Positions 2,764 to 63,900 of a stretch of 64,000 bases of DNA are shown piece by piece. This DNA is from Trebouxia sp. TZW2008. Its lineage: Eukaryota > Chlorophyta > Trebouxiophyceae > Trebouxiales > Trebouxiaceae. The notes below the pieces were generated by a model that worked only from the letters and a program-made list of their open reading frames with translations, had not been told where the DNA came from and searched no databases. The first letter of the stretch is position 1. The number at the start of each line of letters is the position of its first letter. The position numbers were made by a program, and so were the translations under genes. The stretch spans positions 253,087 to 317,086 of the forward strand of contig BDIU01000210.1 of the NCBI GenBank assembly GCA_002118135.1. The letters run 5' to 3'.

Positions 2764-5700
2764 TCACACAGGATAGCCGAAGCTCTTGCTGATGGTGCCG
2801 TCAAATTTTTGGAACATGCGCTCCCTCCATTCATAGATGGGGTCATCTTTTGCCAGCAACTGGATCTTGCTGATAGACCTTGCCCACTGCAACCACAATG
2901 TACAAGTGATTGATGGCTTCAGAGCAAACAGTTTGCAAGCAACTTGCTGATGGACCTGGCCCACTGCAACCACGGTGTATATGTGCGGTGTTGCTTCAAA
3001 GCAAACGGTTCCAAACCTTCACAAACTGTTCATTTCATCTGCTGCCAGAGCTGCAAATTCCTGTCAAGGCATACATCAAAACAAGCATGTCACAATGTCA
3101 ACACTGTCAAGGTCAGGACACAGCAAAAGCAGCGAAGGACATGCAATGCACAATGGCCATTCTGCAAGCAACTGCAGTACCGATTGGGAGGTCCCAAGAC
3201 ACAAGTAGAGCAGCTGAGTCTCACCAAAGGTCACACAAGTCCAAACTGGTCAAATTGAAGGCACTGAACAATAGGCAATAGGCAAGGCAGCACTCAGCAG
3301 GGAAATGCATTAAAGCAGCATGCCTCATCATGAATGCGAAACAGTTGAATCTCACCAGAAAGTTGCCTGCCACTGCAATGTCTGCGTAGTTGGGTTGGCT
3401 GCCTCCCAGGAACTGGTGGGTCTTCAGTGTTTGCCGCAGAGGCTCCATGTTCTTCCTGAACTGCTCCACCTTGGCAGGTGTGTCAGCAGCAACCTGCAAG
3501 AAAGCAACTGTTGGCTTACAGCATAAGAATGTGTTCCTTGCTTTTGCATGGTTCTACTGATCTTCAGTGTGTGCCGCAGAGGCTCCATATCTTTCCTGAA
3601 CTGCTCCACCTTGGCAGGTGTGTCAGCAGCAACCTGCAAGAAAGCAATTGTTGGCTTACAGTGCAAGAATGTGTTCCTTGCTTTTGCATGGTACTACTGA
3701 TCTTCAGTGTTTGCTGCGGAGGCTCCACGTCTTTCCCGAAATGCTCCAGCTTGGCAGGTGTGTCAGCAGCAACCTGCAAGAAAGCAACTGTTGGTTTACA
3801 GTGCAAGATGTGTTCCTTGCTTTTGCATGGCACTACTGATCTTCAGTGTGTGCCGCAGAGGCTCCATGTCTTTCCTGAAATGCTCCACCTTGGCAGGTGT
3901 GTCAGCAGCAACCTGCAAGAAAGCAACTGTTGGCTTACAGTGCAAGATGTGTTCCTTGCTTTTGCATGGCACTACTGATCTTCAGTGTGTGCCGCAGAGG
4001 CTCCATGTCTTTCCTGAACTGCTCTACCTTGGCAGGTGTGTCAGCAGCAACCTGCAGGATATCAATGGACAGCTGATGTTTTCCACAAAGTGGCCTGCCA
4101 CTGCAATGTCTGCATAGTCAGGCTGGCTGCCTCCCATTAATTGCTTGGTCTTCAGTGTTTGCCTCAGAGGCTCCATGTCCTTCCTGAACTGCTCTACCTT
4201 GGCAGGTGTATCAGCAGCAACCTGCAGGAAAATTATTGACAGCTGAGTTCTGGCAAAAAATTGCCTGCCAGTCTGTAAAGTTGGGCTGGCTGGCTGCCTT
4301 CCAGGGCTTGGTTGGTCTTCAGTGTGTGCCGCAGAGGCTCTATGTCTGTTTCTGAACTGCTCTACCTTGGCAGGTGTGTCAGCCGCAACCTGCAAGCAAG
4401 CCACTGGTGGGGTTGAGCGCAAGCGTGTCCAGCTTGAGTTTGGATATTACTAATGGTGTGCAATCCCCGGCTACGCTTATAGACAGTGGCTTCCTTTATG
4501 CTGGCTAAATGTGTACTCTCCACTGGGGTGTACAAAGTGCGCAAAGGGCTGGCATGTAGGCTGGTCTCCTGTGTACAGTGTCTTCTGAACACCTAAGCAA
4601 AATTGCTCAGCCACATTGCTCAGCCATCAAAGCATCACAGAGTGCCACAGTTCAGAGCGCAGCATCATAGCATAGCAAAATGCCTTGCACAGCCTAGCAC
4701 AGGACCAGAACAGGTTGAAGACAGTTGAAGGCTCCAGCACGTACCTACCTGGGCCTGCTGAGCCCGTCTAGCACACACTTGAAGTGAGTGATTGCAAATG
4801 CCATGACAACATCTGGCAATTGAGAACAGCCTTTCAGATGATCAGCGCTACAGAGCTGTGACAAGTGGCAAAACAAGCACAATGTGAAGAGTTGCGTACG
4901 TCTTCTAGTTTCTGTCCGCCAAAGAGCTTCTCTCTTGATTCTCTGAAGTATGCTTTGTCCTTCTCTGCAAGGTGGTTGAACATGTCCATCAGGATGACAA
5001 GAGTTATGCCCATATACATGGCATTGTCAGACCTGCAAATGCAGCATACATGTTTTGACGTATTTGCACTGGCTGCACAAAAAGCATTGTCTCCATGGAG
5101 TCTTGCCAAACAATACTGTCAAAATGCTCCTTTAAATAAGACTCAATGTCATTGACTATCAGTCTGGAAAATAAATTGGGTATTGTGGCCAGTTTAATAG
5201 AGCCGCACAATCATGCTTTGACTCACCACTTGACAATGAACTTGATTGCCGCATCACCTACATCAGCAACCCAAGCTCATCATACAGGCGCACAAGCAGA
5301 AGACCTAACCGTGCTGTGCGGCACATCGATATTCTGCAGACAGAGCATCATTGAGGAAGTTGCTATCGCTCAGCCTCAAAGGGAAGCACTCTTACCGCTG
5401 GCACAGCTGGTTTTAAAAAGCTGCTTTTCTGGAAACTCCTTGTCCAGAAACTGATTGATGTCCCAAGACTCGAAATGTCTCTTGCCTTTGTAGTCCAGGA
5501 CAGGCACCTATAGGGCAAGGCATGCGATGCAGAAGCCGGTGGAGTTCTCAGCCGCCATGTCTGATTGCGCGCCACTGTCCAGCAAGCTGAGAGATCGATG
5601 GGATGCAGGTGCATGATGAGCAAAGCAACCTACAGGACTGCCTTCAACAGCACAGCAGGCTGTCTTACGGCGTCACCTTGTCTGCAGGCTTGATCAGGTC

Positions 5701-5847
5701 TTTGTCTGAGTATCTCCAGGGAATCGACTTATACGATTGGCCCTTGTAAGCTAATGCAAGACGAACGCGCCAGACAAAAGGGCTAAAAACGCAGTTGGGA
5801 TCGGCGCCTGCCAATTCGTACAAAGTCAAATCTTGTGGATACGACAT
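2764..5847 (-). CDS. Glutathione S-transferase, copy B
   Basis: Complete GST, 235 residues, from exons 5847-5677, 5507-5396, 5257-5227, 5032-4900, 3493-3356 and 2886-2764 (708 nt, phases consistent). Begins MSYPQDLTLYELAGADP; the glutathione site region is FSPFVWRVRLALAYKGQSYK, followed by VPVLDYKGKRHFESWDINQF. The C-terminal domain holds NMEPLRQTLKTHQFLGG and NYADIAVAGNF, and the protein ends FDGTISKSFGYPV. Length is normal for the family. Intron 4 is unusually long (about 1.4 kb) because it holds six degenerate copies of the beginning of exon 5, and a SINE-like repeat lies at its 5' end. Function beyond GST is not assignable; detoxification is the default inference. Confidence 0.9.
3351..4395 (-). 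repeat. Tandem array of GST exon-5 starts (7 copies)
   Basis: The segment encoding VAADTPAKVEQFRKDMEPLR, preceded each time by a CTGCAG-type acceptor, occurs seven times. The shared mark TTGGCAGGTG lies at 3471, 3611, 3751, 3890, 4029, 4199 and 4367, so units are 140, 140, 139, 139, 170 and 168 bp. Only the 3'-most copy (start 3493) carries the full exon with a donor. The copy at about 4222 is nearly complete (through DIAVAGHF); the four middle copies stop after about 27 codons, and the 5'-most is frame-damaged. The paralogous gene A has no such array. Confidence 0.9.
4685..4795 (-). mobile_element. SINE-like repeat, copy 1
   Basis: CAGGTTGAAGACAGTTGAAG, GCTCCAGCACGTACCTACCT, GGGCCTGCTGAGCCCGTCTA: a diverged member of the dispersed family, in intron 4 of GST copy B. 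Confidence 0.55.
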
Positions 5848-6820
5848 GCCTGAACGACCTCTTCTCTCCGGACGTAGAGCGGCGGAGCACTTCACGACAG
5901 ACCTTCAGACACGAAGTCTGCAGTTCTCACGGCGAACCACGTTCTGCGCGCAGACAATTGCGCGTGATGCCCATGCATGCAAATGGATCGTAAGCTTAAA
6001 TGACTAAAGTCCACGTCAAAAGTGCCATGCTGGCCAGAGCTGTTACACACCTGGCCCAGCTTTAGGTAGCTTGCGCACTCCAACATGCCGCAGATTGTGT
6101 CCCAGCACAGAGTCAATCGCTTGATCAGCTCATGCATGCGCTGATGTTGGCTCAAAGTAAAGCAGACGCCGCCAGTATGTACTGTTTCTCAAGGTTTGAA
6201 TGTTAAGCTCGATCATTCGTGCAGACTGAGCATGAGACAAGAGGTTATCGTTCATGCGTAGGATCACGAGGTGAACCTGCTTTGCATTCACAAAATGACT
6301 GCTCAAGCACAAAAGCAATGTGCCTAAATTGCAGTACAAGATATACGCTACGACCAATGGTGCAGCAAATGTGGTTTCAACCTCTGTTTCTGCTCAACAA
6401 CACAGCTGCCAGTAGATGTACAAAACTTGTTTTGTTTCAAATTAGCACAGCAAAATGCTGAGGTTTGTGCAAGGTGCTGAGCCTTGTATGCGTATCAGCA
6501 GCAACATATAAACCATGACATTAGCAAGGAGCTTTCAAATGCTCCCAAACCCACACAACATGCTGCTGAAGCCAATTTTGATTGGTCTGTCTGCAGATCA
6601 ATAGGCACATACTGCACTGGCCGCAGGGAACCAAATGCTGACATCAAGCAGAACAGCATTTGACCCTAAACCCTGGCCAGCTCGTTCCCACAGCCCATTA
6701 GCATTAGCACTTGCAATGACTCTCCCTGCTGCTGACAATTCTTTTCAACGCATGCATTCAGTGGGCTAAGACGCTCCCATGCTGTATGACTAACTGTCAC
6801 CAGCTTCATGTGTTATGTTC
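5848..6820. other. Intergenic region between GST copy B and the plant-type gene
   Basis: No convincing exon on either strand. The left end is the likely promoter of GST copy B. The right end runs into the SDSESD-tail repeats. A few short open frames exist, but none shows family similarity or splice sites in phase. Confidence 0.5.
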
Positions 6821-6821
6821 A

Positions 6822-7292
6822 ACAGTCGTACTCGCTGTTGCTGCTGCTGAGTACAGTTGCTCAGGTCCTTTCTGTGAAGTCAACAGTGAGACTCGCTGTC
6901 ACTGCTGCTGAGTGCTGGGTGCACGCAATTGGCTTGTGGCTGACCATGTGATGAAAAGTCAGACTGGCTGTCACTGTTGCTGAGTGCATCCGATTGACTG
7001 GTTCCCTTTTGGCTTCAGCAGTCAGACTCACTGTCACAACTGATGGGGATTCTGCTGCTCAACTTATAGACTCGCTGTGACCACTGCTGAGTGTCTAGGA
7101 CTCAACTGTCAGACTCGCTGTCGCTGCTGCTGAGAGCGTCCAATTGGCTAGGTCTGCTGACCCCATTTTGTACCCAAATGGTAACTTCTGAGTGGAGTGA
7201 AGATGTGGCAAGCAAGTGAAGCTGTGCAAAGTGGGACTGAAGTATTTGGTGCCAAGGTGCTCAGCAGTCAGACTCGCTGTCACTGCTGCTGA
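6822..7292 (-). repeat. Tandem copies of the SSSDSESD tail segment
   Basis: The C-terminal codons of the neighbouring gene (core TCAGACTCGCTGTCACTGCT on the + strand, SSDSESD on the - strand) recur about seven times, near 7267, 7107, 7068, 7022, 6960, 6889 and 6826. The copy at 7267 is the coding one and ends in the stop at 7261. A longer unit of about 160 bp, including the ANGVQNGV/ANWT region, joins the first two. The others lie beyond the stop, in the presumed 3' UTR or downstream. Confidence 0.8.
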
Positions 7293-10200
7293 GCGCGTCC
7301 AATTGGCTAGGTCTGCTGACCCCATTTTGCACTCCATTGGCAACTTTGGGGCGGGGTGAAAATGTGGCAAAGCCAGTGAAGCTGTGTGAAGTGGGTCTGA
7401 ATGACTTTATGCTGAGGTGCTGAGTGTTGGCCTTGAAGGCGGCTATCTCCTCTTCTGTCAAGCCCTCTGTATGCAAGCAGAAGCACAGTAAAAAGAACAG
7501 TCAAACTAGGGGCAGGGTGAAATGTGGCAAAGCCAGTGAAGCTGTGTGCAGTAGATCTGAATGACTTGATGCTGAGGTGCTGAGTGTTGGCCTTGAAGGC
7601 AGCTATCTCCTCTTCTGTCAAGCCGTCTGTAGACAAGAAGCAGCGTCAGTTGAGGGCTTTGTCTCATGGCACAAACTGATTTTGTGTATCGGGCAAAGGA
7701 GTATCTACCAGCAGTAACCAACGCCGAGGTCAATGCATATGGCTAGGGCCGCAGCAGATTGTCACAAAGATGATAGTACATGTGGCTGCACCAAATGACT
7801 TTGGGCAGATGTGTTGAGAGATGGTCCACCGCTTTGGTACATGTTGAGCAAAATCATGAAATTTCATGGAAACAACGTGAATGATAGTTATCATTATGCT
7901 TAAGGGAGAGGCTTTTTGCCCTAACAGGGAGGCGATTCACCCTACAGAACTGCACAAGGTGATCAGGTGAGACAGGGACCAGCAGCAGCTTCAAAATGCT
8001 TTTTTTCTGTAAAATGATGTTGGATTAGGCGTACTGAACAAACAAGAAAGCAGCTCCTATCAAATCATGAAATCCATGAATTCCTGTTACTAGAAGGAAA
8101 GTAAATGTGTGACTCACCATCTTCATCATCACCAGCCTCAGTCCAGCCCAAGCTGCGCAAGAATGCTTCTTCTTCAGCTGAAACCTTGGACCTAGGATCG
8201 CTTGCATCCCAAGAATGCCGTCTGTCATGGCCATGCCCGTTAGTCACGTGTGACTCATCCTTAGTAGCAGCGTTGACTTTGCTTGCGATTTCTGCCTCGT
8301 TTGCAGTAATGCCATTTGTGGCAGGGGGGGTTGGGGGGGTCTGTGGGGGCTGGGTTGGGGGGTCAAGGGGGCCATTTTCGAGGGCTGTGGTCTGGGCTTT
8401 GGGGGTCGAAGGGGAAGAGGGAGGGGCAGCCTTGTCTGAGTCTGCTGTCTTTGCCGATGTGCGTCTGAGGCTCTGGAAGAAACTGGTGCGTTGCCGCTCC
8501 AAATCCTTGGCGGCTGGCTGCTTTGCAGCACCTACAAACACCAGCATGATCATCACTCTCAGCAGGACCATCAGAGTGACCATCACCACCACCAATCACC
8601 ATCAACATCACCAGACAATGCTGCTGAAACAGATCTGCCCTTGCAGGCAGTCACGATTGTGACTGTTCCCAGATAGAGCATTTGCACACTAAATTCTTCA
8701 AGGGGAAAAACAGCTGATTGCGTTTTGGAAGCACCAGACAATGCAATTTGAGCCTGCAATGCTTAAGATCAGCTGCATACCAACCGCTTCAGGGCAGACA
8801 GCTGATGACAGTGTCACACAGTGAGGTCAAACGACCGGGAGACCAAAAGGCAACAAGAAAGACTTAGTCACAGTCAACTGTGTACAAGGACCTCCTCGCC
8901 CTCCATGTCCAATATAAATGGTTTAGGTTAGCACATGATCGAACTGGTTGAAGACAGTTGATTGCTTCTGTACGTACCTAGATGGCCTGCTGAGCCTGCC
9001 TAGCCCACAATTACAATCAATGAAATGAAAAACAAATTGTTGCCATAAGTATGGTCCCAGACAACACTTGTATAGGCAAGGTCAGAGTAACAATAGAGGT
9101 GTAGACCCAGCGTGAAGTCATACACAGAACCTGGAGACTTCTCCCCAATATCAGTGTATTTGGCAATGCCTGGCAAGCTTGAAGTAGTCACCTGACATGT
9201 GACCGTCTGCTGAGTCACCAGCATCACTGCCGCCTTCAGGCTTTGCATCTGCAGTTCCAGCTGTAGACCCTTGACTGGTCCTAGGGTCACCAGAAGACAG
9301 CCGCCGCAAGCTAGGGCCTAATCCTGTCATTACAGGACCTGCAAGAGAATGTAAACATTACTAATGATAGCATCTGCAGTTGCTCTTGTAGCTCCCTGAC
9401 TGGTCTTAGGGTCCCCAGAAGACAGCCGCCGCAAGCTAGGGCCTAAGCCTGTCATCACAGGACCTGCAAGAGAATGTAAACATTATTAATGATAGCATCT
9501 GCAGTTGCTCTTGTAGCTTCCTGACTGGTCTTAGGGTCCCCAGAAGACAGCCGCCGCAAGCTAGGGCTTAAGCCTGTCATCACAGGCCCTGCAAGGTGTT
9601 GAGAACCTGGATCAGTTCTGCCCCTGCCACTACAATGCATGGTGCTTGGCAGAAACATTGCAACAAGTGCTTTCAGCCCACTACTACACGGAGCAAACAA
9701 CTGTCTCCAACCAGTTTGGTCCTGTGCTAACCTGAACTGTGCTTGATGAGGATGATGCAGATCATGACTCTGATGCTTCAGTGAATTGCGAGCATCTTGA
9801 CCTAGCTGCATCTGTGCTGTGCTGTGCTGTGCTGTTGCTGCCAGACACAAGTAAGCACGTAGGCCGTGTTTGTTCAACAACGGTGTAGAAGCTGAGCTGA
9901 CACCTCATGACCTTACACAGTGATGCCTCGTGACCTTACGCAGTGATGCTCACACACAACAGCACCAGTTGTTCAATACATGCAAACCTGCAGCATGTTG
10001 GCACTCAAAAGTGGCATAGCTATGCGTACCAGCAGGTTGCTCCTCCACTTTTCTGCCCGCTTCAACCCCAGCCTTACCCCTTCCGCCCCCCAGCCCACCC
10101 CCAGCAGCAGCTGCGGCCATTGAGAGGGCATGCTTTGGGCCGTTCAGAGATGTGCCCTTGCCCTTAGCCTTCTCCCTGGTGCTGGTGCTACTCACCACTG

Positions 10201-11196
10201 GGATGAGCTGCTTTGACTGCCGCACTGCAAGGTCCTCTAAGCGCGCTTTGCTGCTTGAAGGGGCTGGAGTACTGCTGTGTAAAGTTGCCTGCAGACACAA
10301 CGCCGATGTCTGAGCTGTTGAGAATAATGCATAGTAGCTAGGAGGATGATTGTGATGGGGTCTGCACCAAAACAGGCAATTATAGGAATGAGTTGCTGAA
10401 ACAACCGCACCGTCAAGCCCTCTTGAGCTAGCAGCAAAATTTGCAACGCAATATAGTACGCTTGCTAGGCAGGCATTGGAAGTTAGCAGCCAGGTACATG
10501 TAGACGCATTTAAATGGCACTGTACAGTGACTTCCCCTTGTGAACACGTCAGATTTAAGGACATTCTTGTTGTCAGGACAATGCAATGCGGAACCAAGCA
10601 CTGCGTTCTGACTGCAGTGGCACCTCTGAGTAAGGACAACTTGATGTGAGGGCATTTACATAATACCCAAAGCAGCCGTTGAAAAGCAACTGTTGGAAAG
10701 TGAAGTTGGTGTACCTGCTGCAAAGTGTCTGCCATGCGTGGCTGCAAAGCAGAAACATCAGCAGAGGCAACTGATTTGGATGCCGCAGGCTTGACGGGTT
10801 CTGCCGGTTCTGCCAGCCTAGGGTTGGATACCCTAGGGCTGAGGGCAGCACCGTCCGGGGCATCTGCCAAACGAGTCCACTGCTGCTCTGAAGGGCCGTT
10901 CCCAGAATGCCAAGTCTTGCTGGCTGTACTACGTCCTGCTAAACTGGGAAAGTCTCTGTCAAATGGGGGCTGCACACATGCAAAGCATTTATCAGAGAGC
11001 AGCAGCAGCAGCAGCAGCAGTATCGTTCACATGCTTGCTACTCAAGCTCGATTGGGGAACCATCTGTCAAACGGAGGCTGCACACACACACACAACTGCC
11101 ATTCATTCATCGACACAACCGACACACAGATACACAAGTACGCTGGGAAAGTCTCGGTCAAATGGGGCTGCACAAGTAAATGCTTTGATTAGAGAT

Positions 11197-11230
<34 letters not shown>

Positions 11231-13132
11231 TGCTACCTTGCTTGCATGCTTGCTACTCAGACTTGACTGTGGAAAGTATCTGTCAAATGGGGGCTGCACA
11301 CACGCACAACTGCCAGCAATTATGATCTTTGCTCAATGTTCATGGTTGATCGACAAACAGCATCAGCATCAGCATCAGCATCAGCATCAGCAACACGCTT
11401 GCTGGCTGTGCTGCGTCCTCCTACACTGGAAAAGTCTGTGTCAAAGGGCAGCTGCACTCACGCACGACTGCCACCATTCATCAATACAGACACACAAGTA
11501 GACTGAGAAATTCTCTATCAAAATAAAAGTCGCACACATGCACAATCTCATCATGTCCATAACCTTCTTCATCATCATTGTCAGCATCTTTGTCAGCATC
11601 AACAGCACTGTCTACATGCTTGCTGCTTCGGCTGCCTCATGCTGCTAGACTTGGGGGAATCTGTCAGAAGAAGGTTGCACACATACACAGCTGTCATCAT
11701 CCAACAGCAGCAGCATTGCAGAACATCTCAAATCTGGCAGGAAAACCAAACAAAACAAGAAGAGATTTCAAGTAATTGATCACCATACATGGTCACGAGT
11801 ACTGCATAACCATCAACGCATAAGTTGCTGGCTAGTCAAGATCCACGACCCTGCTAGGTGCATACAAACGCAGTGAACTGCCTGCACAATGCTCAGCCAC
11901 AGCTGTGCATTGCGACAGATTGTGCTGCACTGTACAAAGTCAATTGCGCACACATGACATGGGTGCGCACATCTGGAAAGAATGTGAAGTAGTGACCCAA
12001 TGACATCCCCTAGTGATGACAAGAGCAGTCAGAGCTGACGCAGCTTGAAAGTGCTGTGAATTCTCTTCAGTTGCAATGGCTGCCCTTTTTGTACACTGCT
12101 GGAAAAGCTTATCCTGGTAACAAACAACTGCACTTATCACCAGGTGATTGATCCTACAACAAATTGTCAATGACATGTACCAAGCAGTGAGAATGCAGTG
12201 AGTGGTGCCCAGTGGCATGATGCTTGCACCGTGTGATGTCCTTAGATCAAACAACCTTCATGCACAGTTTGAATGGTTTAGGATAGCACAGGATCAAAGT
12301 TGTTGGAGACAGTGAATTGCTCCAGTACGTACCTAGCTGGGCCTGCTGGGCGTAGCATACAATTAAAATGAATGAATGAGAAATGAATATCAAGCGTGAC
12401 CATACTGCTGTGTATGATTTGTTCGTGTACCTTGTCAGAGGGAGCTCTGCCAGTCAGAGGCACACCACGAGATGCACCAGGCCTCAAAGCAGGTGCATCA
12501 TGGTAGTTGCTGGTGCTTCCCGCAGAGCCAAACCCAAAGTCCTCCCTGTCGCGCAAAGGAGGGCCGCTTTGAGTGCGAAAGACTCCTTTGCCAGCAGTGC
12601 TGTTGCTTGCTGAAGCAGCAAAGCTGTCTCTGCTGTTGTCAGAGGGAATGCGCTCTGGTGGCCCTCTGTTGCTTCTACCTGCGGGCGCTGGTCTGTAGCT
12701 GTATGATGTGCTGCTGCTGGTGCTGCTTCCACCCAGAGGCAAGCTGCTCTGCCAGCTATCGCGGTGGGCACGGTCACGTTGAGGTGGCTCACGCGTCGCT
12801 CGTGCAAAGGAGCTATCGCGAGTTGTTGCGCTGCTCGGGCGTCCGCCAGTCACGGTAGACTCGCGCTTGGGCCGAGCCTTGTTGTCTGCAGAATGAAGAA
12901 GCAAGTTAGGAGGTACGCGCAGATAGGGGGCAAGAGTTGACCTGGATGTTGTTTGCAATAGCGTTCCTGACATACGTGCGCAAGCGTGTGCATGTGCCTG
13001 GCAAACTGAGACTACAGCCTCACCTCTCGAAGCGAACTGTGAAGTCGAGCTGTAATTGTGACCACCTGATGTTCCAGGCGGCCCCCCTTTCTGGAGCCAC
13101 TGCGGAACTAGTGCAGGCTCATCACTGTTCAT
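7261..13132 (-). CDS. Plant-type conserved unknown protein (EPxLVPxWL / FDRDFPSL / FLRSLGW-TEEEI family)
   Basis: Predicted 614 residues from exons 13132-13024, 12885-12431, 10969-10715, 10288-10030, 9338-9192, 8531-8118 and 7466-7261; every junction is GT-AG and the summed phase closes on the stop. Blocks in order: MNSDEPALVPQWLQKGG, a Ser/Arg-rich stretch (RDSWQSSLPLGGSS), PPFDRDFPSLAGRSTASK, ARLEDLAVRQSKQLIPV, PVMTGLGPSLRRLSSGD, EEEAFLRSLGWTEAG followed by DGLTEEEIAAFKANTQ in the next exon, and an acidic SSSDSESD end. From memory, land-plant proteins of unknown role (Ser-rich or mucin-related in databases) share the same order, including an EPxLVPEWL start, an LEELAxKQSRQLIP block and an FLRSLGW-GLTEEEI end. 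Mostly disordered. Three internal exons carry tandem partial copies. Start is the ATG of the EPALVP block. Confidence 0.8.
7400..7626 (-). repeat. Duplicated last exon start (GLTEEEIAAFKANTQ), two copies
   Basis: The acceptor plus GLTEEEIAAFKANTQHLSIK coding segment occurs at 7626 and again at 7466 (160 bp apart). Both accept phase 1. The distal copy reads to the SDSESD stop; the proximal copy reads through into the second in another frame and stops at 7307. They could serve as alternative terminal exons giving different C-termini, but the conserved acidic tail exists only with the distal one. Confidence 0.8.
8911..9030 (-). mobile_element. SINE-like repeat, copy 2
   Basis: Member of a dispersed repeat of about 100 bp with core TTGATTGCTNCNGTACGTAC and GGCCTGCTGAGCCTG (+ strand). 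On the reverse strand it carries AGGCTCAGCAGG, an A-box-like motif, and about 50 bp further AGTTCGATC, a B-box-like motif. It lies in an intron. Confidence 0.6.
9192..9597 (-). repeat. 125-bp tandem array of the PVMTGLxPSLRRLSSGDP exon (3 copies)
   Basis: Three copies start at 9588, 9463 and 9338 (exactly 125 bp apart), each with a TTGCAG acceptor and each accepting phase 1. Only the 3'-most (9338-9192) continues through GDSADGHMS to a GT donor; the first two end at the next unit in TADAIINN without a clear donor. About 60 bp of exon sequence is nearly identical among copies, implying recent duplication. Confidence 0.85.
10523..10694. mobile_element. MITE-like element, pogo/Tc1-mariner type (degenerate)
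   Basis: Starts TACAGTGACTTCCC and ends AAAAGCAACTGTT, with the internal motif GTGGCACCTCTGAGTAAGGA shared with elements at 14.2, 14.4 and 25.3 kb. The 3' terminal repeat has decayed. Located in an intron of the plant-type gene. Confidence 0.6.
10945..11690 (-). repeat. Array of PPFDRDFPSL exon starts (7 copies) with CAG and CAGCAT microsatellites
   Basis: Reading the - strand, acceptor-preceded copies of QPPFDRDFPSLAGR are seen near 11660, 11515, 11437, 11283, 11155, 11070 and 10969. The 10969 copy is the real exon. Others read QLPFDTDFSSVGGRSTASK, QPPFDRYFP, QPPFDRWFPN or are frame-shifted. Interspersed are CAG runs at about 10999-11020 and 11196-11229 and a CAGCAT run at 11358-11391, which may have promoted slippage. 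The acceptor CAG just before the codons survives in most copies. Confidence 0.8.
12268..12385 (-). mobile_element. SINE-like repeat, copy 3
   Basis: Same family as 8911-9030: GGTTTAGGATAGCACAGGAT, then TTGGAGACAGTGAATTGCTC, then CCTAGCTGGGCCTGCTGGGC. Lies directly beside exon 2 of the plant-type gene, in its intron. The A-box analogue on the reverse strand has lost part of its sequence. Confidence 0.6.
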
Positions 13133-23852: not shown

Positions 23853-24425
23853 CACAAATTGCAGCAACAGTGTTCTGGTCTGATAACACTAAGTACAAAC
23901 AGACAAGGAAAGCCTGTGACGTCAGGCATTATAACGGGAGCCTCTGTCTAAAGAGGCGGCCCAGGTAACATCAAGTACAGTATGAGGATGTATGGACACA
24001 GTGTTTGAACTGACGTTACAATAATCCAAATGTGCTAGCGCTGAGAAGAAGGAACATTTGTCATTATCGATCATGAATGCTGATTGCTGCACCTTTCATT
24101 CCACTGCTGGCAGTGTGCCAATGACAGGCAAGCCCTTTGCACGGCGATGTCCGTGTATAACTTTGTCAAAGTCAGGTGCCAGCAATTTCTGTACGTGCAA
24201 ACATGTTCTTTTTGCATATGGTGCAAGACATTGGAAGCCGACTTCGACTAGTTATACTACATGCTGGCGCTGCTAAACAGCTGCATATTGTTGAGCGTAA
24301 TGCAGGCTTGCAGATGTGTTGTTGCAGCATCCGTTCTGACATGTCATCGCATTGCAAGCAGGCATAGCCACCAGCTGTCACTTTACAGCACAGCATGTGC
24401 CCAAGAACCACTGGACAAAAAAATC
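23853..24425. other. Intergenic, between convergent RNASEH2B and the DHHC gene, with a hairpin repeat
   Basis: No exon is seen. It contains one copy of the structured repeat at 23912-23967 (ATAACGGGAGCCTCTGTCTA then AAGAGGCGGCCCAGG). The two genes converge here, so both 3' UTRs must end in this interval. Confidence 0.5.
23912..23967 (+). repeat. Structured hairpin repeat, copy 1
   Basis: GTCAGGCATTATAACGGGAG then CCTCTGTCTAAAGAGGCGGC. The GCCTCT/AGAGGC stem is perfect. The second stem and the A-rich leader of the other copies are absent. Confidence 0.6.
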
Positions 24426-50300: not shown

Positions 50301-52143
50301 GTACTACTGTGTCCAGCAGAACATGGCCAGATCCCTCTTTGTTGCTGCTATGAGACTGTGTGTACCATGACGAGGCTTTCTCCTTTCGGGTGTGCAGGTG
50401 TTGTAGCTCAGACAACAGTGGCAGTGTGCAGCAGCACCAGCAAGTACTACTCGAACTGGTGCTGTGCCCAGCAGAACATGCCTCATTCCCTGTCTACTGC
50501 TCGTTCACATGGATCCTGCTTCAGTGAGGCTGTTCTCTTTCTGTTCTACAGGCGTTGTAGCCCAGACAACAGTGGCAGTGTGCATCAGCACCAGCAAGTA
50601 CTACTCGAACTGGTGCTGTGCCCAGCAGAACATGCCTCATTCCCTGTCTACTGCTCGTTCACGTGGATCCTGCTTCAGTGAGGCTGTTCTCTTTCTGTTC
50701 TACAGGCGTTGTAGCCCAGACAACAGTGGCAGTGTGCAGCAGTACCAGCAAGTACTACTGGAACTGGTACTGTGCCCAGCAGAATGTGGCCAGATCCCTC
50801 TTCACTGCAGTGCTGCCTCCGCTGCTGCTCATGCTGTGGCAATCTCTGGTCATGCCCAATGTTCTGTACCGCTTTGCCTGGGTGAGTTTGTGCTTTTGTT
50901 GCCGGCTGCTTACACACAATTGGCATTCATCCATTCAACTCTAAGCATTGCCAAATTCTTTGCTCCTTGCTTACATCATCATGTTGAGCAATCTCAGGTC
51001 ATGCCAAATGTGCTGTACTGCTTCAGATGGATGAGTTGACTGTTTCATCAATGCACACACACAACTTGCATTATTGTTGTTGTATGATACTCTGCCTGCA
51101 GCATCAACATATTGTTACTTCTCCTAAACATGCCCAACCTTCTATATTGCCTCTCATGCGTGAGCTAGCTGTTTCGTCACATGTCACATGCACTTGGCAT
51201 TTTTGCTGGCAAGATTCATGGCTTGGGTTTTGTCGCTGTGAGTACTGACAAGAATCTCAACTCAAGTCTGCTTGCTGTATGCGCTGTGCTTTCATGCTGC
51301 CAGTGAACAGTTCTGGTTGCATGCACAGATGTTGGCACCAATTGCAGCCTCAGCATAACTTGCATGAATCCGGCTTGTATATATCGCAAAATCTGTCATG
51401 GAAGAGACCAAACCTCACTATTATTGCAGATCGAGTCTAAGTGGCCTAGCCTGTCCCAGCTAGACCGCCGCATTTGTGAGCTCTTCTTCTTCTGGGATGT
51501 CTTCAACGTCTTTCTGGGAGCCATGTTTGGGGGAGCCATTTTCAGTCAGCTGGGCACCTCCATCAAGGATCCAGGTGTAACTTCATGCTGCTGTATTACA
51601 AAAGCTGGTGGTATTGTTATCAACAGACATATCGCCATGATCATCCTTGGCATTGCAATGACACTGCCATCGTCATGATCATTCTATAATTGGTTGTTGT
51701 ATTCATGCTTAGGAATCCTGTGGTTCAGGCTGTTGTTTGCGCTGAGGCTTGCAACACACAGCTAGCATTCATAATAGCATCGTCTCAAAGCTGAATACAT
51801 CGTAAGCACCTATGTGCCATTGAATATGTACACAGCATGTCTGTCGCCAGACATTTGACTTTAGCCCATGATATGTTGGATGTCAGAGAGTGTGTCTGCC
51901 TCTTCCAGGAGACCGAGTATGGCTTTCAGTATGCTGAATGTTAGTGACTGTGTTTGTTTGATATGTTTTGCCTTCGCCTTGCCTTGTACCAAACGACAGC
52001 GAGAGTGTGCAGGTGAGTCTGTGCGGCCCGTCCAAGATTAGCAAAGCCTTTGCTTTGTCCTGCTGAGATGCTGCATGAAGCTGGTGACGCCATTGCAATT
52101 CTGACGTTTCTTGTTTTGTTTTTGAAATGCTGAATCTTCGTGG

Positions 52144-52184
<41 letters not shown>

Positions 52185-55100
52185 ACTGCAGCCAGCATCC
52201 CTAGCCTGGTGGACACCGCCCTGCCCAGCAGCAGCAACTTCTTCACCAATCACAACCTTACTCACATGCAAAATGTCAGTGAGTGTGTGCATGGCTGCAG
52301 CCGGCATCCCTAGCCTGGTGGGCACAGCCCTGCCCAGCAGCAGCAGCAACTTCTACATCCACCGTGTCTTTTACTCACATGCAAAAAGTCAGTGAGGTGT
52401 GTGCGACTGCAGCCAGCATCCCTAGCCTGGTGGGCACAGCTCTGCCCAGCAGCAGCAACTTCTTCATCAACTACGTCATTACTCAGGGGATTGCCATGAT
52501 CCCCTTCAGAATCATGTTCCCTCACATTGGAGTGCTGGTTGGCCTGTTCAGGGTCTTGCGCATTTGTGGTGAGCACCCTAACCCTGCAATCCTGCATCTC
52601 CTGTAGGTATAAGGCCACGTATCTTAATGCTTGCACAGAGTGTCACACCGCCCTTACTCACGCCATTCTGCAGCATTCTGCATGCATGGTTCTCTATCAA
52701 GTTGCATGCACAGGCTCCCATATCACTCTGCATGAGGGCAAACCCCTTGCAGCCACAATGTCTGTGTAGCAACATCTTTTGCACAAAATCCAGGTGACAA
52801 TCGTACGAGTCATAGGTGTATGTCACAGCATTTCCAGCATCATGACAGCAGGAAGCCTTCCATTCCATACGCATAGCAAGCAGCAGCACTTGCGTCTCAC
52901 TTGACATCAGTCATGTGTGTCACTGGTTTCTATATTCACATACTGTGAGTGTAGGCGCTGCCATACTCATAGTTGCAGCAATGCAGGCATTGCAAGGTAT
53001 TGCAAAAAGTGGCCTTGCAGCAATGCACGTATAGTAAACTCTCTCTGTAAATAATGCTTTGGTACCAACAATTTGTTCCATACATCGAATTGTCCTTACG
53101 CTGAGTGTCCTTACAACAAGAGTTTACTGTGTTATGAGCTTGGGCACGAACAAGTCAGGTAAAAAAGCCCTCGCAACCACCAACCGTTCTAGCCCTTTCG
53201 ACTGCTGGTTGTGCTTACATGGCCTCGAGACCAACGGTGCTGCGCAGCTGCACACATCAACATTGACGGTGGTGTATATGTGATCACACTGATGACCATA
53301 CATATGTGATCACACTGATCACCATACATAAGTCAGCTGCTGGATGAGTCATGGTGCATAAGGCTGCTTCTTCCTTTGCAGGTCCCCCTAAGTCTGACAG
53401 GGATAAGGTCGCTGCTTTGTGGCCACACAGCGTCAGATATGGGCGGGAAGTTGGCGTAATGATGCTCATTTACATCATTGTTTTGGCGTACGCGGCCACC
53501 AGCCCCATCATTCTGCCCTTTGCCCTCATCTATTTCATGGCCAGCTGGATCTTCTGGCGGTACAACATTCTGTATGTCAGCGAGCGGTGCTTTGAGAGCG
53601 GTGGCCGTATCTGGGACCAGATCTTCAAGCAAGTGTGCTGCTGCATGTTCATCTTTGAGTTCTTCACAGGTACATTCCTGCTTGTATAAATGCAATGTCA
53701 TTGCTCCTGCTTTCAGCAATATCAGTGTTGCATGCTTATCTTTAAGTTCTTTACAGGTAGCCCTCGATGCTGTGCTTGCTGTACCCTTGTCACTTTGGCA
53801 TGGCTGCCAAATACCAATGCACATAGCACTGCAAGATGCGCTATTGAATTCTTCACACGTAGAATCTATTCTGCTGGTTGGTTAATACAAAGCAAGTGCT
53901 CCTGCTTTGCGCAACAGCGCCGCCAAAAAGATTGACGTGGAATCTTGTGCAAAATGATTTTGGTCTGTTTCATACTTGTGCTCATTCAAAGGACATTGTA
54001 TGAAACACAACTGCTGCTGCTGCTGCTGCTGCTGCTGCCACATTTTGACGCACTCCTCACCAAATCTGCATGTCACATGAACATGTGCCCTTCAGCACAT
54101 CGCAAGAAGTCAGGCACCTCACGTTGCTTGCTACACATAGAGCTGCTCATCTTCCTGGTATAGGTGTCCAATTGAGTGTCATTTCGAGTGCTTGTTGTAG
54201 CTGATATGCGCTTGACACGGTTCATGAACACAAAGCTCGAAAGCTGGCCTATCACTTCCAGTGCTTGTTGTAGCTCATACGTGCTTGACAGCCTCCATGA
54301 ACACAAAGCTCAAATGCTGGCCACACTAACCAATTTGAAAGCTGATAGGTTTTCTGTAGTAGTGTGAGGAATTAGCACCCTACCATCTAGCTAGCAATGC
54401 TTTTCAGCCCATACGCAATCTGTAACTTCTTCTGTCTGCCTGTGCAGCGTGCGTGCTGTTTGCCAACTCAGCCTTTGTCCAGGCCAGCATCCTGGTGGCT
54501 TCCATGACGCCCATCATCTACAAGTTCTACAGGTCAGTACAGTGAACACTCTGGGTTCAAGGTTTTGAGTGAAATCTTTTCATGGTGACACCACATTGAT
54601 TGTCAAACTTGATGTGCATGGCTGATACACTGAATTTTCTCCATGGTGACACCTTACTAATTGTCAAACTTGATGTGCATGGTTGACAGTTGCTGGGACC
54701 AGTCTGAGCTGACATGACGGTCTCTTGATCTATGGTGGTACTAGGGTCGCCGATGTTGTCATCGTCATCGTCAGCAGCATCATCATCATCAGCATCATCA
54801 TCATCACCACCATCACCATCATCACCACCATCAGCATGTTTTCCAGTGTTTTATGACCCTGCTAGGTGCATACAGAAGCAACAGGATCAAGATGGTACCA
54901 AAGCTACTTGGATGCTTGTTGTTGGAACATTAGACGTCCATTCCATGACGCTCAGAAACAAGTCAGCCTGACAAGACAAGACTTGTGCCACACACACCTA
55001 GCAATCTTGCTGGAACGTGTAACCATTATGAATATTATTACTTGGACGTGTCGCAGGTACTGCAGCATCAGATATGGACATGCAGTGGCGCATATGCCTC

Positions 55101-57997: not shown

Positions 57998-60900
57998 ATG
58001 CCTGCCCTTCAAGGTAAACAGCATTGTTCTGCAAACTGAGCTTTCTCTCAGCTTCTGCTTTATCAACCTGACAAGTAGAGCATCAAGACCACACTAAAGT
58101 CTCCGGTCACCACCATTACACTGTGTTAGATACACAGAGAACTACATGTGATCTACATATGTCCGGTCCTTGGCAAATACAGGCAAACAAGCTGATTGTT
58201 GCGCAGGCAGTGCAGAAGTAATGTCTCTTGGCAGTGGCAGTCCCGGGCAACAGGATCCCTGCCAGTCCACCACATATGACCCCATAGCAGTAGGCATGGC
58301 ATCAGTTCAGCAGGCAGCTGAAGCACGTGAAGACATGGGTGCATCACAGCTGCCTCTGCAGCATGGAGGAGGAGAGGCTGGTCAAGGGCTGAGTCTCCCA
58401 CCCAGTGCAGGTAAACAACTCAATGTTGAGCCATGCTAGCGACAAGCACCTGCACAGGTCTGTCTGAGCTTGCTATTCCAAATATTCAGATATTGCTACA
58501 TCTGTCAGCTTCATGCTTCAGCCTTTGCGCTGTACACCAAGGTTGCTGCAATTGTATGTTTGCACTGTCTTGGTGACAACCCTCATGTTCAGGGACTGTA
58601 CATGGTTGTTTCATTGCAACTTCTGAGCATGCCCATCTGTCCAGTTGCATAGCTATGCATCCTCATCTGTACTAGCTATAGTGACTGGTGCAGATGGGCA
58701 GGCCCACAAGTTGCAACCAACCTACCCTGATACAATTGTATCGGTCTACACATACCGCTGTCGTACTGCTGTCTTGGCAAACAATATTTGCTGCAATGCA
58801 TGTTTGTGCTGTCTTGACGGTATTGCTCACGCTGGTCAGGGACTGTACATGATTGATTGACTGCAGCTTGTGATTTTGCCCATCTGTTCAGCTGCATAGC
58901 TGCACATCCTCGTCTGTTCCAGCTCTGTGGGTAGTTGTGTGGGCAGGCTCACAAGTTGCGACCATTCTGTCATGGTCCAGTCAAATCTATCTTGACGCAC
59001 TGCTGTCTTGGACAACGCATGTTGCTGCAACGCATACTTGCAGTGTCTTGTTAGTCAGGCTCGTGCTGCTTTGCGGCTGTACATCTCAGTTGATTGCAGC
59101 TTCTGCAACATACCCATGTGTCAGATGCAAAGCTATACATCCTCATTTGTATCAGCTGTATGACTAAACCACAGTCCAGGCTCACAAGTTGTGTTGACGA
59201 ACTTTGGCAGCGTCTTATCTGTCTGCATCTGATTTTGTTCTGTCAAACAGCATTCACCATGGCTCCTGTATTGTCGAGCAAACAGCATTCACACTGCTCC
59301 TGTATTGCTATGCCTACAGAAAAGTTGGACCTGGCTTTATGCAAGCTTGCATGCGACTGCCAGCAAGAAGCCACTCTTGGCGCTGCTGCTTAATGCTCAA
59401 CTTGGTCTTCTCAACTCTGCAATATATGCACAACTTCTGTCACGCTTTCTACATGATTTCAAGCGCCCGCTGTCTTTCTGTTGTTTCTCATGATGCTGTA
59501 CATTGGCTTACTGAAAACATATGCGCTGCTTGCTGCAGGCCATGAGGCATCGTCACTGCATGCAACTGAGCCAGAGCCAGCAGCTTTCACAGATCAGGCA
59601 GCTGATGCAACCAATGTCCATGCTGTGCATGCCAGTCAGGGGCTTGCAAGTCTCAGGACAGTTGCAGCAGGGCTAACACAGGGTTGCCTACAGCACAGGC
59701 CTTCTGACAGCAGCACTCAGACTGTTGTTGTCAACCCCCTGGCTGATCCCACTGGGGTGCCAGAGACCCATACCAGCCCTGGATGGTTTCAGAGCAAGCC
59801 ATTCAAGTCAGCCTTGCAGCGTAGGCCTTCTACTTCAGGCAAGATCTTGGGTGTCAGGAGAGACACCCACACCATCCAGAAGGCCAAAAGGGTCACATTT
59901 GCTGCATGCAATGAGGAATTCATCCTGCCAGTCCTGCCACCTGTGGATAATGTAGCTGTGCCTGAATTTGACACTAGGCCAGCCAGCAATGATGAAATCG
60001 GCAGTGATAGCGATGATGACTCTTGGGACTTGGCATTTGGTGAGTCTGCAAGGACTTGGGAAGATTTCAGCAGCTTGGGGTCACTAGCCAACAGTCAACA
60101 GCCAGCAGCATCAGGGATTGCACCAGCACAAACTACCGCTTTTGAGGTAGAGGGTGACTGCGCTGCTCTGCCTGCATCCCAGGACACTCTTGCCAAGGTC
60201 AGGGAACCAAGGCAGGCTGATGCACCTGCTGCCGGCAGCTTTGACAAAGAGCTGTCTTGCAATGATGCTGTCGACTTGATTGGACCCCTGACCAGCCCCC
60301 CTGAATCCCCCACCCACCCCAGGCGCCCCCCCATGAGTGATGTCATGGAAGGCCCCTCTGACCACAAGCAGTCCCCACTTAATCCTGGGCTAACCCCAGC
60401 TGATGCCAGCCAGGCAGTCATTGACCCAGGTGCAGCCCTCAGGCAAGCAAACTTCATTGCCCTTCTGTGGGACCTTTTTGGTGATCATCCTGATCTGGGT
60501 TTGCCTGCTGAGAGCGCTGAGGAATCCTCAGCTTCAGAGTCTGAGCTGGACATGCTTGCTGAGAGCAATGTTGTAGACTTGGCGTCCGGTCCCAGTGACT
60601 TGGAGGGGCTGCATGACAGCGCACAGGCACATGTGACAGACCTTGGAGCAGGCCTGCAGCCTTGTCAGGCAGCTGCATCACTGGAAACTGATGCAGCAGC
60701 CGCAGCAGCAGAAGGTGACATAGCAGCTGCAGCAGCGGAGGGTGACATAGCAGCTGCAGCAGCGGAGGGTGACATAGCAGCTGCAGCAGTGGAGGGTGAT
60801 GCAGCAGCTGCGTCTGAGTTGCTGACTCAGCAGTACACTGACAGCTGCAGCGCTGCTGAGGCAGCTGATGCAGAGATGCAGCCAGCTGCGAAGAGGCAGA

Positions 60901-63900
60901 AGTCTGCCTCTGGAAAGTGGGTCAACAAGCCGGTGTCAGGCATGAGGCAGAGTAAGACTGGCGCCAAAGCCAGAAACCCCTCCAAGACCCCAAGAAGATC
61001 CCCAAGGACTGTGGCGCAGAACGACAGAACTTTTACACCCATGTTTCCAAAGAGCTTGCGCAAGAGGGCCAGGCGCCTTTGTTGGGCCAGGGAAGACATG
61101 TTTGTTGGGGTAGAGGTGTGGGGTGAGTGCAGATTGTCCCTTCCTGTGTGCTGATTGCAGACCTTTTGCATACTTCCTGTCTGGTCAGGCTCTGCGTTCT
61201 GAGGTGCTGTGCATGTGTGATACTGCAAGCCAGCATGGCACATGTCTGTTGAGGCTCCAACATAAACACTTTTGCATGCATACAGACTATATGCATTCAT
61301 GCATTGAGAATGATCAGGCTGCATATGCTCTACCTTCCAATGTGTTGTCTTGAAGGCAACATCAACGCAGCATTCTGTATTTCCGCATGTTTCGTGCCTC
61401 ACTTCTCAAGATTGAAGCTGTTGCTTATATCTGGGTGTGCTTTTCCTTACAAAGAGGCCATGACTTGTGTGATGTGGATCTGATTTGTGATTACTTTGGC
61501 CTTTGCTGCTCTTTGAAAAGTTGAGGCAGCCCTGACAGCCAAGCAAAGCTTTGGCTAACAATGTATGCATGTTGATGGTGTCGTGGGTGCAGAGAAGTGG
61601 TTGTTTGTATCATGCTACGTGCAGCAGGTGATATTGGAACAAAACAAAACCCTGATGCAATAAGCAGCTTTGACAGGCCACACTGGTGTTTGCATGCACT
61701 GAAGCTTGTAGCACTGCTCACAAGCTGCTCACTGCTCACTTGCACACAGTGTGGGATAAACTTGTTGTCTGACTGTAGGGACTGCCCCAACCTTGCAAGG
61801 GGCAGCACACATCAAGTGTTCACAGATCATATCAGTGAAGCTGTGCACACTTTGCCTGTGTTGCCCTTTGAAAGATTGAGGCAATTCCTGCAGCCAGATA
61901 AAGTTTTGCCTCACAGTAAACACATACTAACAGTGTCCTGAGTGATACTTGTTGCAAGGCCTTGGCATCCCCTGCAGGCAGACAGACTTTTGTCTCACAC
62001 AGTCTCCAAATTGCCACAGAACAGCGTCACTAGCCACTGTCACACCAGCACATTGTCAATATACACATATGCTGTGAGACAAAGACTTGCCTGGCTATAG
62101 GGACTGCCTCAACCGGTGAAAAGCAACAATGGCCAAAGTCAGCATAAAAGGATCACTGAAGCTTGTAGCACTGCTCACAATTCCACGAGTTTGCACACAG
62201 TGTAAGATAAATTTGTCTCTGCCTGCAGGGACTGCTGCAACTTTGACAAGGGCAGCAAAGGTCAAAGTCATCATAGATAGACTCACTGAAGCCAAGGGGA
62301 AACAGGTAGCCACCATCAGAGAAGAAGACATACCTTCTTGCTCTTGGCACCCCCAGGGCTTGACTGGACCCCAAGACCCTGAGTCCCCAGAAACCCCCAC
62401 TGACCCCCATGAGGGTCCCCTGGCCCCACCCAGCCCCATCACCCCCACAGACCCTACCCCCACCCCTTTTCTCCCCTTCATGCCCAGCCCACAGGGTCCA
62501 GCCTTTACACAGAAGACCATGGACAAGATTTGTCTGAAGGGTAAGATTTTGCAAAACATGAGTGACTTTTCTGACCAAGCTACCCCGGCAGGTTTGCATG
62601 TACTGTCTTGCTGTGAGTGCTGACTGTGCATGCAGTGTAGACGGTATTCAACGCGTTTGAATCTGGATAACTACCAAGCAGAGGCCAGTATTTCAGCACT
62701 TCCCAATGTGTGCTGCATACTACACTGTAGCATATAGTGCACTTAGTCTTAGCATCTTGTGCACCCAATCTGCACAAATGATTGCCAACAACAGATGATT
62801 GCTGTTTGGATCAAAGTGTGGCAAGTCCTGGTGTACTAGTCCTGCAGCATATGCTTGAACTTGAAGCATCCACTAATTTGAGCATTGCAGCAGCTAGCCA
62901 GGTCTTAGACACCAATCCAATTGATCATATGCAAGCATTGCCATCTGTTCCAATTGTTCCTGGTGGAGCTTTCATTAGTTTGTGGCAGTCCACTGCGTCG
63001 AGACCAGGATGCCTGATTTGGCTGTTGCAAGACCCTTCATGTGTCTGGCATTGCTCATATATGCTGATCTTGCAGATCTGGAGGGCGAGGTTGACTTTTC
63101 ACAGTTTGGTGACATGAGCCCAGCAGAGCTCGGGTTCTACAATGACTTACTTCACCACGGACCCCCAACTGCACCTAAAACCCCCACACTGTGTAGCCAG
63201 CAGCCACTGGTCTCCTTGACACAGCTTGTACAGGGCCATCGACAGCAGCAGCAGCAGCAGCAGCAGACTGCACAGCAGATGCTGCATGCTGAACAGGTGC
63301 AGCATGCTGTGATGCTTCTCACACAGGCTTTTCTGGCCAGCATGCCTCGGCTGCCACAGCAGTTGCTTGAGCAGCAGCAGCAGCAGCCTGTCCAGCAGAT
63401 GCCGCATGGTGAACAACTGCAGCATGCTGAGGCACTGTTTACACAAGCAGCCGTGGGCTGTGACCCTCAGTTGCAGCAGCAGCAGCAGCAGCAGCAGCAG
63501 GCTGGCGAGTATGACCGGTGGCTGCAGACACTGTGGCCCTCATGGACTGCAGCACAGCTTGAGGCTGCTCAGCAATACGCAGGTACGCTTCTGTCGTAGT
63601 GCTTGTGGTCAAATTGCACTGTTTGCCTGGTCTTGTGGTGATTGACTGTGCACCTGATGAGCAGACCTACTGTATGCCTTTGTGTGCCTGCTTATGCATT
63701 AATTCTACATTTCCTCGATGGCCTCATTGTTTGCACACACAAGCACAGCATACCGCAATGTTTCATGACTACGTCAATGCGATGACGTGTTGTGCTTAGC
63801 TTAGTTTGACAGCGCCGTATTTGGCAACTCTGGAATGTCTGCCGAGCCTTCAGCTCTGTAATACAGCTTGTCTTTGCAGGCTGCTCAGGAAATGCTGCTG

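Follow-up and report, generated by a model that had tools for sequence, protein, structure and literature searches.

Tandem arrays and splice-site echoes in seven gene regions

The genome of the green alga Trebouxia sp. TZW2008 contains a 64-kb stretch (C202:253087-317086; contig BDIU01000210.1), here called the window in its full length, in which the edges of many exons are repeated head to tail together with their splice sites. In these partial copies, termed echoes, either the 5' part of an exon with its acceptor lies upstream of the intact exon or the 3' part with its donor lies downstream of it. A preliminary description of the window had proposed such arrays in at least seven unrelated genes, and arrays were found in all seven regions that it named (GST-B, a 'plant-type' gene, a reductase, RNASEH2B, DHHC, a channel and a Gln-rich gene). 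The genome is rich in short head-to-tail duplications, mostly of 80-220 bp, far beyond the window. The reading preferred here, with a probability of roughly 0.55, is that genome-wide short tandem duplication leaves long-lived fossils at exon edges.

Self-comparison of the window yields 68 near direct matches (shift below 3 kb, length at least 40 bp), which group into 28 arrays by BLAST and 39 by a window-based detector; the main arrays are also listed by Tandem Repeats Finder (TRF). Two GST paralogues lie side by side on the minus strand (GST-A, 294-2167; GST-B, 3356-5713), and one of them carries a big echo array. In GST-B, the 5' part and acceptor of exon 3356-3493 recur upstream of it about five to six times, with a period of ~140 bp (3314..4462; self-comparison, TRF, BLAST and gene model). 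GST-A (exon 294-545) has no array like this one in the self-comparison, and the intron measures 384 bp in GST-A versus 1406 bp in GST-B if small exons predicted within the array are disregarded. The two genes form a natural before-and-after pair.

Also on the minus strand, the 'plant-type' gene holds an array with a period of ~133/159 bp (6816..7644; self-comparison, TRF, BLAST). Exon 9192-9338 is associated with three copies of its 5' part and acceptor at a period of 125 bp (9245..9595; self-comparison, TRF) and exon 10715-10969 with copies of its 5' part (10916..11715; self-comparison, BLAST). The array at 17680..17932 (period 83 bp; TRF, array classing) lies within an intron and echoes no exon. 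In the reductase, one exon-edge copy is classed as acceptor-spanning (18345..18636) and another as donor-spanning (18709..18891; both by self-comparison and array classing). The DHHC region contains a two-copy duplication (24580..24846; self-comparison), a duplication with a shift of 276 bp (25932..26503; self-comparison, BLAST) and four copies with a period of 179 bp (26933..27640; self-comparison, TRF, BLAST); its gene model is only 86 amino acids long and has no Pfam match. On the plus strand, the 3' part of an RNASEH2B-like exon occurs three times with its donor at a period of ~111 bp (21603..22029; self-comparison and TRF, the donors being read from the sequence). The RNASEH2B Pfam match scores below the curated cut-off.

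The channel gene, on the plus strand, has arrays along much of its length. Acceptor copies lie upstream of exons 38588-38819 (38271..38714; TRF, array classing) and 41722-41886 (41411..41837; TRF), and upstream copies accompany exons 45158-45315 (a single copy, 44970..45315; exon-copy scan), 48036-48162 (47642..48104; TRF), 48853-49070 (48496..48942; self-comparison) and 52413-52568 (period ~110 bp, 52165..52485; TRF). Several copies lie upstream of exon 39894-40035 and one downstream (39147..40257; self-comparison, TRF). A further array of about five copies has a period of 126-133 bp (41966..42741; TRF, BLAST), and the one at 37141..37706 is classed as intron-only (BLAST, array classing). Donor copies had been proposed at the exons ending near 44120, 47157, 50881 and 53669, and all four exons were recovered with copies downstream: exon 43919-44124, which also has one copy upstream at 43784-43832 (43784..44783; self-comparison); exon 46945-47131 (or 47157), with acceptor copies upstream and a donor copy downstream (46404..47311; TRF, gene model); exon 50706-50881, likewise with acceptor copies upstream (period ~154 bp) and a donor copy downstream (49895..51208; self-comparison, TRF); and exon 53382-53669, with donor copies downstream (53641..53914; self-comparison). 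In the Gln-rich gene, also on the plus strand, copies of the 5' edge accompany exon 62229-62591 (61697..62292; self-comparison) and an intron-only array has a period of 245 bp (58543..59191; self-comparison, array classing).

Do the intact exons alone join in phase, as the preliminary description held? For the channel, which is OSCA/CSC1-like, masking the echoes gives a model of 30 exons and 1443 amino acids; the gene finder builds open exons only, and the lack of stops is therefore partly by construction. Some of the exons look spurious, and 54778-54837 is a simple repeat. A part of 478 amino acids (two junctions hand-adjusted) carries the RSN1_7TM and PHM7_cyt domains and has its best protein match in Apatococcus fuscideae (61% over the whole query), with further matches in Coccomyxa subellipsoidea (56%) and Botryococcus (45%), as would be expected of a trebouxiophyte; a fragment from a metagenome is 90% identical, over 20% of the query. 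These domains and the Apatococcus match support the exon model better than its open reading does.

Abundance, size and direction of the copies

The genome searched comprises 68,541,624 bases in 527 contigs. The sample used for all counts below, unless stated otherwise, consists of 24 sequences (291,730 bases): the window, and 23 stretches, each 7.7-10 kb long, drawn from 18 contigs that include the one with the window. BLAST detects at least one array in 19 of the 23 stretches, and the window is therefore not special. The window-based detector finds 160 local direct-repeat arrays across the sample and places 22% of the bases of the window and 16% of those of the sample inside a duplicated segment. 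Order-1 Markov controls gave no matches, with BLAST and the window-based detector alike. Both the arrays and the alignments consist of head-to-tail copies of local sequence, as in small local tandem duplication.

The shift is at least 40 bp in 146 arrays, with a median of 129.5 bp; it is 80-220 bp in 114 arrays, 40-80 bp in 21 and at least 220 bp in 11. The window-based detector has a power of about 1 for shifts of 80 bp and more, of 0.83-1.0 at 60 bp and of 0.60-0.95 at 40-50 bp, and the size mode is therefore real, with a somewhat under-counted lower flank. A BLAST self-search was rejected as a size census: planted repeats shorter than about 90 bp escape it, and its apparent lower limit is an artefact. 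The duplication size resembles that of nucleosomal or Okazaki units, a resemblance only.

Could arrays of this kind arise from mis-assembly? There are few near-identical copies, and a collapse of short reads would have the same effect. On the other side, the best upstream copies diverge by 9-24% in their exon parts (10th-90th percentiles), changes on the intact lineage have a codon structure (see below) and the arrays recur in most stretches, from many contigs. Assembly error is the least probable of the explanations considered here.

A purpose-built gene finder, with the sample as its training set, predicted 223 confident internal exons, of which 17 resembled echoes of better exons and were dropped; a low-complexity pair at L014 stayed in. 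About a third of the remaining 206 (74 exons) have some copy nearby. Acceptor-spanning copies occur at 47 exons, 94 of them upstream and one downstream, and donor-spanning copies at 23 exons, none upstream and 44 downstream. Twelve copies, at six exons, span both splice sites, and 19 copies, at 16 exons, span neither according to the gene model. The direction given in the preliminary description, acceptor copies upstream and donor copies downstream, is thus almost without exception; the direction itself is automatic, because a head-to-tail duplication across an acceptor leaves just the downstream copy attached to the rest of the exon, and one across a donor just the upstream copy.

More exons have acceptor than donor echoes (47 versus 23, P 0.006), and other counts lean the same way (46 versus 27 exons in an earlier scan, 40 versus 22 arrays). 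A simulation does not predict this asymmetry (466 acceptor and 491 donor copies detected of 585 each, at a divergence of 0.12), and no acceptor/donor difference is seen when copies are counted by exon edge with the spanned site ignored (54 versus 50 of 206). If the asymmetry holds, donor decoys may be tolerated less than acceptor decoys.

A Pfam search of the genome, independent of the gene finder, revealed overlapping tandem matches at 7 of 66 loci (matches on one strand, no more than ~600 bp apart, with an overlap of half or more of the shorter profile range; read by eye). These fall in XPG_I (1 of 4 loci), DNA_pol_A (1 of 3), MutS_V (3 of 8) and HSP70 (2 of 10), with none in Ku (0 of 2), Cpn60 (0 of 12, two smaller overlaps being uncounted) or DEAD (0 of 27, from 32 of 123 candidates scored). 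At the aligned loci (two HSP70, one XPG_I) the echo homology reaches or crosses the splice site, and at both HSP70 loci the homology of the nearest copy extends into the intron.

Age, placement and decay of the echoes

What process would leave such arrays? In the preferred reading, local head-to-tail duplication, mostly of 80-220 bp, would be or have been very frequent, wherever the segments happen to fall. A duplication across a single splice site would be tolerated, the protein being unchanged while the site beside the intact exon is used, and what remains would be an echo of the 5' part with its acceptor upstream or of the 3' part with its donor downstream. The echo would decay largely as non-coding DNA, the intact copy being held by selection. 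Echo pairs would outlive wholly intronic pairs and stay recognisable longer: a large deletion could remove any member of a pair that lies within an intron, whereas at an exon edge the echo alone could be lost. Repeated events, probably including re-copying from the intact exon, would build arrays and lengthen introns.

The age of the copies bears directly on this scheme. When 120-bp pieces were searched for a copy within 260 bp (one copy may count at both edges of an exon), copies were found for 54 of 206 exon 5' edges, 50 of 206 3' edges, 28 of 360 clean intron pieces and 39 of 358 pieces outside predicted genes, an overall excess at exon edges over intron pieces of about threefold. The copies were then divided by estimated divergence per lineage (up to 0.06, 0.06-0.10 and above 0.10). 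In the youngest class the pooled rates are equal (9/412 at edges versus 16/718 elsewhere, odds ratio 0.98), and 5' edges compared with introns alone give a rate ratio of 1.3 (6/206 versus 8/360). A genome-wide process that duplicates exon-intron boundaries, as the preliminary description suggested, stands as to its genome-wide extent and the overall preference for edges. Action at the boundary is not required, given the equal young rates and the duplications within introns and outside genes. That description had also named equal frequency of copies within introns as the observation that would speak against it; such equality is found for the young copies and fails for the old. The echoes look like the result of general duplication and decay rather than of a device that copies splice sites, and a process aimed at these sites, though possible, is not required to explain them.

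Several results weigh against the preferred reading, and some of them speak for edge-biased birth, the strong form of the boundary-duplicating process in the preliminary description. On this alternative, duplications arise preferentially at exon edges, where for example breaks, R-loops, nucleosomes or the splice-site words TGCAG/CAG would favour breakpoints. It draws on the threefold overall excess and, in addition, on the older copies. The pooled excess at edges grows to a rate ratio of 2.4 in the middle class (41/412 versus 30/718, odds ratio 2.5) and 4.5 in the old class (54/412 versus 21/718, odds ratio 5.0). It is larger still among old copies when 5' edges are compared with introns alone (24/206 versus 6/360, rate ratio 7.0; middle class 24/206 versus 14/360, rate ratio 3.0). 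A simulation that lets duplications arise equally everywhere, restricts edge placements to those that leave the protein intact, adds small indels and applies the detector used on the real data predicts 5'-edge ratios of 0.63, 0.64 and 0.96 for the young, middle and old classes, the low young value being expected because selection should forbid many edge placements. Compared with this, the youngest counts are compatible with equal birth or with a modest edge bias, with a wide error; at such small numbers, young copies may be biased to edges by a factor of 1.6 to 2. Detection explains only part of the edge excess in the older classes, and therefore either longer survival beside exons or an older exon-biased wave of duplication is needed. 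Survival is favoured for parsimony, although it covers the excess only roughly.

The placement of the arrays points in the same direction. Splice-spanning and intron-only arrays stand at 62:23 where 27:58 is expected (15 'multi' and 23 exon-only arrays set aside), and units at 36 splice-spanning to 12 against a null share of 0.44 (33 'multi', four exon-only and two with both set aside). A stricter set gives 14:9 (odds ratio 3.3-3.8); in the strictest set, at 4:2, the excess is not significant. Purging of duplications inside exons, which the preferred reading assumes, gains no support from the exon-only arrays (23 of 123 versus ~16 expected), part of which are in-frame coding repeats or seemingly mis-modelled edges. 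Duplicated segments cover 18.5% of exon bases, 15.6% of intron bases and 8.7% of bases outside genes, and by position ~0.20-0.22 just inside acceptors, 0.13-0.17 around donors and 0.155 in mid-intron. Base coverage is an unfair test, since the echoes themselves sit in introns, and the array- and piece-level tests were used instead.

The ends of the homology are a further point for edge-biased birth. Among exons with upstream copies, 13 of 54 (24%) have such an end near the splice site, and among those with downstream copies 11 of 32 (34%). Simulations that place breakpoints at random and include realistic indels give 11-16% and 13-20%, and so account for roughly one half to two thirds of the clustering. 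Moreover, 21 of 23 echoes that start at the acceptor are without significant homology in the next 52 bp upstream. The spacer between echo and exon is homologous to the expected flank (P<0.05) in 17 of 44 upstream and 13 of 29 downstream cases; homology is undetected in the other 27 and 16, whose spacers would be decayed, filler or unrelated sequence. An ungapped view had suggested young echoes that start exactly at the acceptor beside unrelated spacers. This candidate was rejected when a gapped test found homology beyond the acceptor in L005; in L019 it is weak (P 0.053). No common junction motif was seen by eye in the 70 most similar echoes, beyond a general richness in TGCA, CAG and GCA. TGCA is 4-fold over-represented relative to base composition in the sample, in line with breakpoints at splice-site words. 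Edge-biased birth is countered by the absence of a pooled excess among the youngest copies (the bias of up to twofold lying within the noise), by the many intron-only and non-genic duplications of the same size and by the share of end clustering that random breakpoints reproduce. It is considered possible, and less probable than long survival of unbiased duplications.

Do the echoes still code, or do their splice sites serve a purpose? For the most part the echoes are non-coding. Mismatches between acceptor echoes and intact exons run at 0.12/0.11/0.24 by codon position. When changes are polarised with echo pairs, intact lineages show 96/57/239 and echo lineages 449/475/676, and the echoes are much less constrained than the intact exons, yet not flat by codon position. 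Indels in exon-derived parts ignore the frame (130 not divisible by three, 20 divisible). If the nearest echo splice site were used, the added sequence (the insert) would be in frame and open in 2 of the 44 cases at acceptors and in none of the 23 at donors. Insert lengths are spread over the three phases (12/16/16 and 5/6/12, respectively; median ~149 bp). Donor inserts are open in 2 cases versus 4.9 expected.

The preferred reading also has to accommodate three further observations. Acceptor inserts are open in 16 of 44 cases versus 6.8 expected from random intron, an excess that may follow because part-exon sequence is expected to be open. Mismatches between echoes keep a codon structure, with a ratio of positions one and two to position three of 0.65 instead of 1 (0.64-0.68 without CpG-like contexts or with transversions only), and an initial reading of strictly neutral echoes was softened after this comparison. 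Echoes also resemble one another more in their exon-derived part than over the 55 bp that precede the acceptor (per-exon means 0.51 and 0.28, P 1e-4, 24 exons), a comparison confounded by variable breakpoints, since this upstream segment lies partly outside many duplications. The residual codon signal may arise because changes that the intact lineage gains between successive copyings are assigned to the older echo. A coding constraint on the echoes, either weak or confined to the past, may also contribute.

The codon structure of the echo lineages is an argument for echoes retained for function, as alternative acceptors or donors, decoys or poison exons regulating splicing, and echo acceptors do keep fair consensus scores (5.46 versus 7.30 in intact sites on average; donors 2.97 versus 5.57). 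The sites themselves decay nearly as neutral DNA would: AG is kept in 74 of 86 echo acceptors (67 expected under neutral decay, standard deviation 3.7) and GT in 27 of 40 echo donors (28.5 expected), eight acceptor and two donor copies with an unaligned site being left out; a looser earlier count gave 83 of 96 and 31 of 52. Among these 86 AG and 40 GT copies there is no firm sign of echo splice sites being kept or removed. Together with the disregard of inserts for frame and of indels for codons, and with a codon signal that sequential copying from the intact exon could yield, this makes retention for function unlikely and argues against the boundary units kept for splicing of the preliminary description.

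A different source could be mobile elements, introner-like or with large target duplications, inserting at exon edges and carrying or creating the copies. Some spacers between echo and exon lack detected homology, and short dispersed repeats do occur in the window. The first of these repeats (~65-107 bp, both orientations, 78-88% identical to the copy at 13974) lies at 4699-4764, 8940-9004, 12288-12378, 13974-14080, 22843-22932 and 41290-41383, with 14 matches in 7 of the 24 sampled sequences. A second family lies at 10564-10680, 14283-14419, 14449-14585 and 25265-25382 (11 matches in 7 of 24 sequences). The third (9 matches in 6 of 24) lies at 23897-23966, 31659-31741 and 56141-56225, each copy within ~600 bp downstream of a predicted gene. 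The arrays, by contrast, are local matches of the gene's own sequence, a weak test in that spacers were compared with flanks only. Insertion of mobile elements is accordingly judged very improbable, hardly more credible than mis-assembly.

The pair at 14283 and 14449, counted as a near direct repeat, may be two copies of the second dispersed family. The predicted exons of the last gene contain in-frame coding repeats at 60669-60811 and 63243-63500 (periods 27/54 and 120 bp; Ala/Glu-rich and Gln-rich), whose periods are divisible by three and which are distinct from the echoes. In the sample, CpG is depleted (observed/expected 0.39; TpG 1.65, CpA 1.67), as expected if CpG were methylated and fast-mutating.

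For the preferred reading, replication slippage is one candidate for the molecular step; the other is the repair of staggered breaks by fill-in and end joining. The Pfam search found Ku, XPG_I, DNA_pol_A and MutS_V domains in the genome, and a gross loss of these families is therefore not evident. A bolder proposal, offered tentatively and as less likely than edge-biased birth in general, is that a lineage-specific process duplicates DNA of nucleosome or Okazaki size with a bias to the exon-intron junctions of transcribed genes. Introns would then grow largely by re-copying their own exon edges, seeding decoy splice sites.

Relation to known systems

If its scale holds, the phenomenon would make this genome a natural laboratory for intron growth and for how the spliceosome disregards decoys. 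It would also be a datable record, clearly peaked in size, of small tandem duplication, a class of mutation that can also cause disease. The example shows that echoes of splice sites can be explained without a dedicated mechanism.

Exon copies beside an exon are familiar from tandem exon duplication and mutually exclusive exons. The copies described here are unlike these: they are mostly partial and ignore the frame, and the combination of coding sequence, frame and both splice sites that would mark mutually exclusive or alternative exons was not found, both sites being copied at only 6 of the 206 exons. Patch-mediated repair in plants is a related route to small tandem duplications.

Further parallels exist in the literature. 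In the titles and abstract openings surveyed, no report of splice-site echo arrays at this scale was found. In the potato RdRp gene, a tandem duplication across an intron-exon boundary is described as the source of a new intron (PMC4974935). As in the acceptor echoes, the acceptor and a putative branch site are duplicated there and the upstream exon piece turns intronic. Unlike such single cases, copies in Trebouxia affect 74 of 206 internal exons, often as arrays, and need no new intron boundary. Introners are likewise reported to change intron content massively in diverse eukaryotes (PMC9860276); they are dispersed copies of one element, whereas the present arrays are made of local sequence, as judged from local comparison.

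In Chlamydomonas and Volvox, introns are reported to have the highest density of tandem repeats, with a concentration close to the junctions with exons (Zhao et al., 2013, PMC3887541). That survey covered units of 1-50 bp only; the units here are mostly longer, and many contain exon edges. Repeat density is given as 42,059 bp/Mb for Chlamydomonas versus ~158,000 in the sample and 222,000 in the window, obtained with a different detector. In mouse and human cells, small tandem duplications are described as arising at staggered breaks through fill-in and end joining (Schimmel et al., 2021, PMC8355091), giving local head-to-tail copies of the segment flanking the break, as in the arrays; such a route would depend on CST-Pol alpha and end joining. 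The insertions described in that work are below 100 bp, whereas the mode in Trebouxia is 80-220 bp and a shared molecular step can only be presumed. Set beside these systems, what seems new in Trebouxia is the scale and the size class, not the kind of event.

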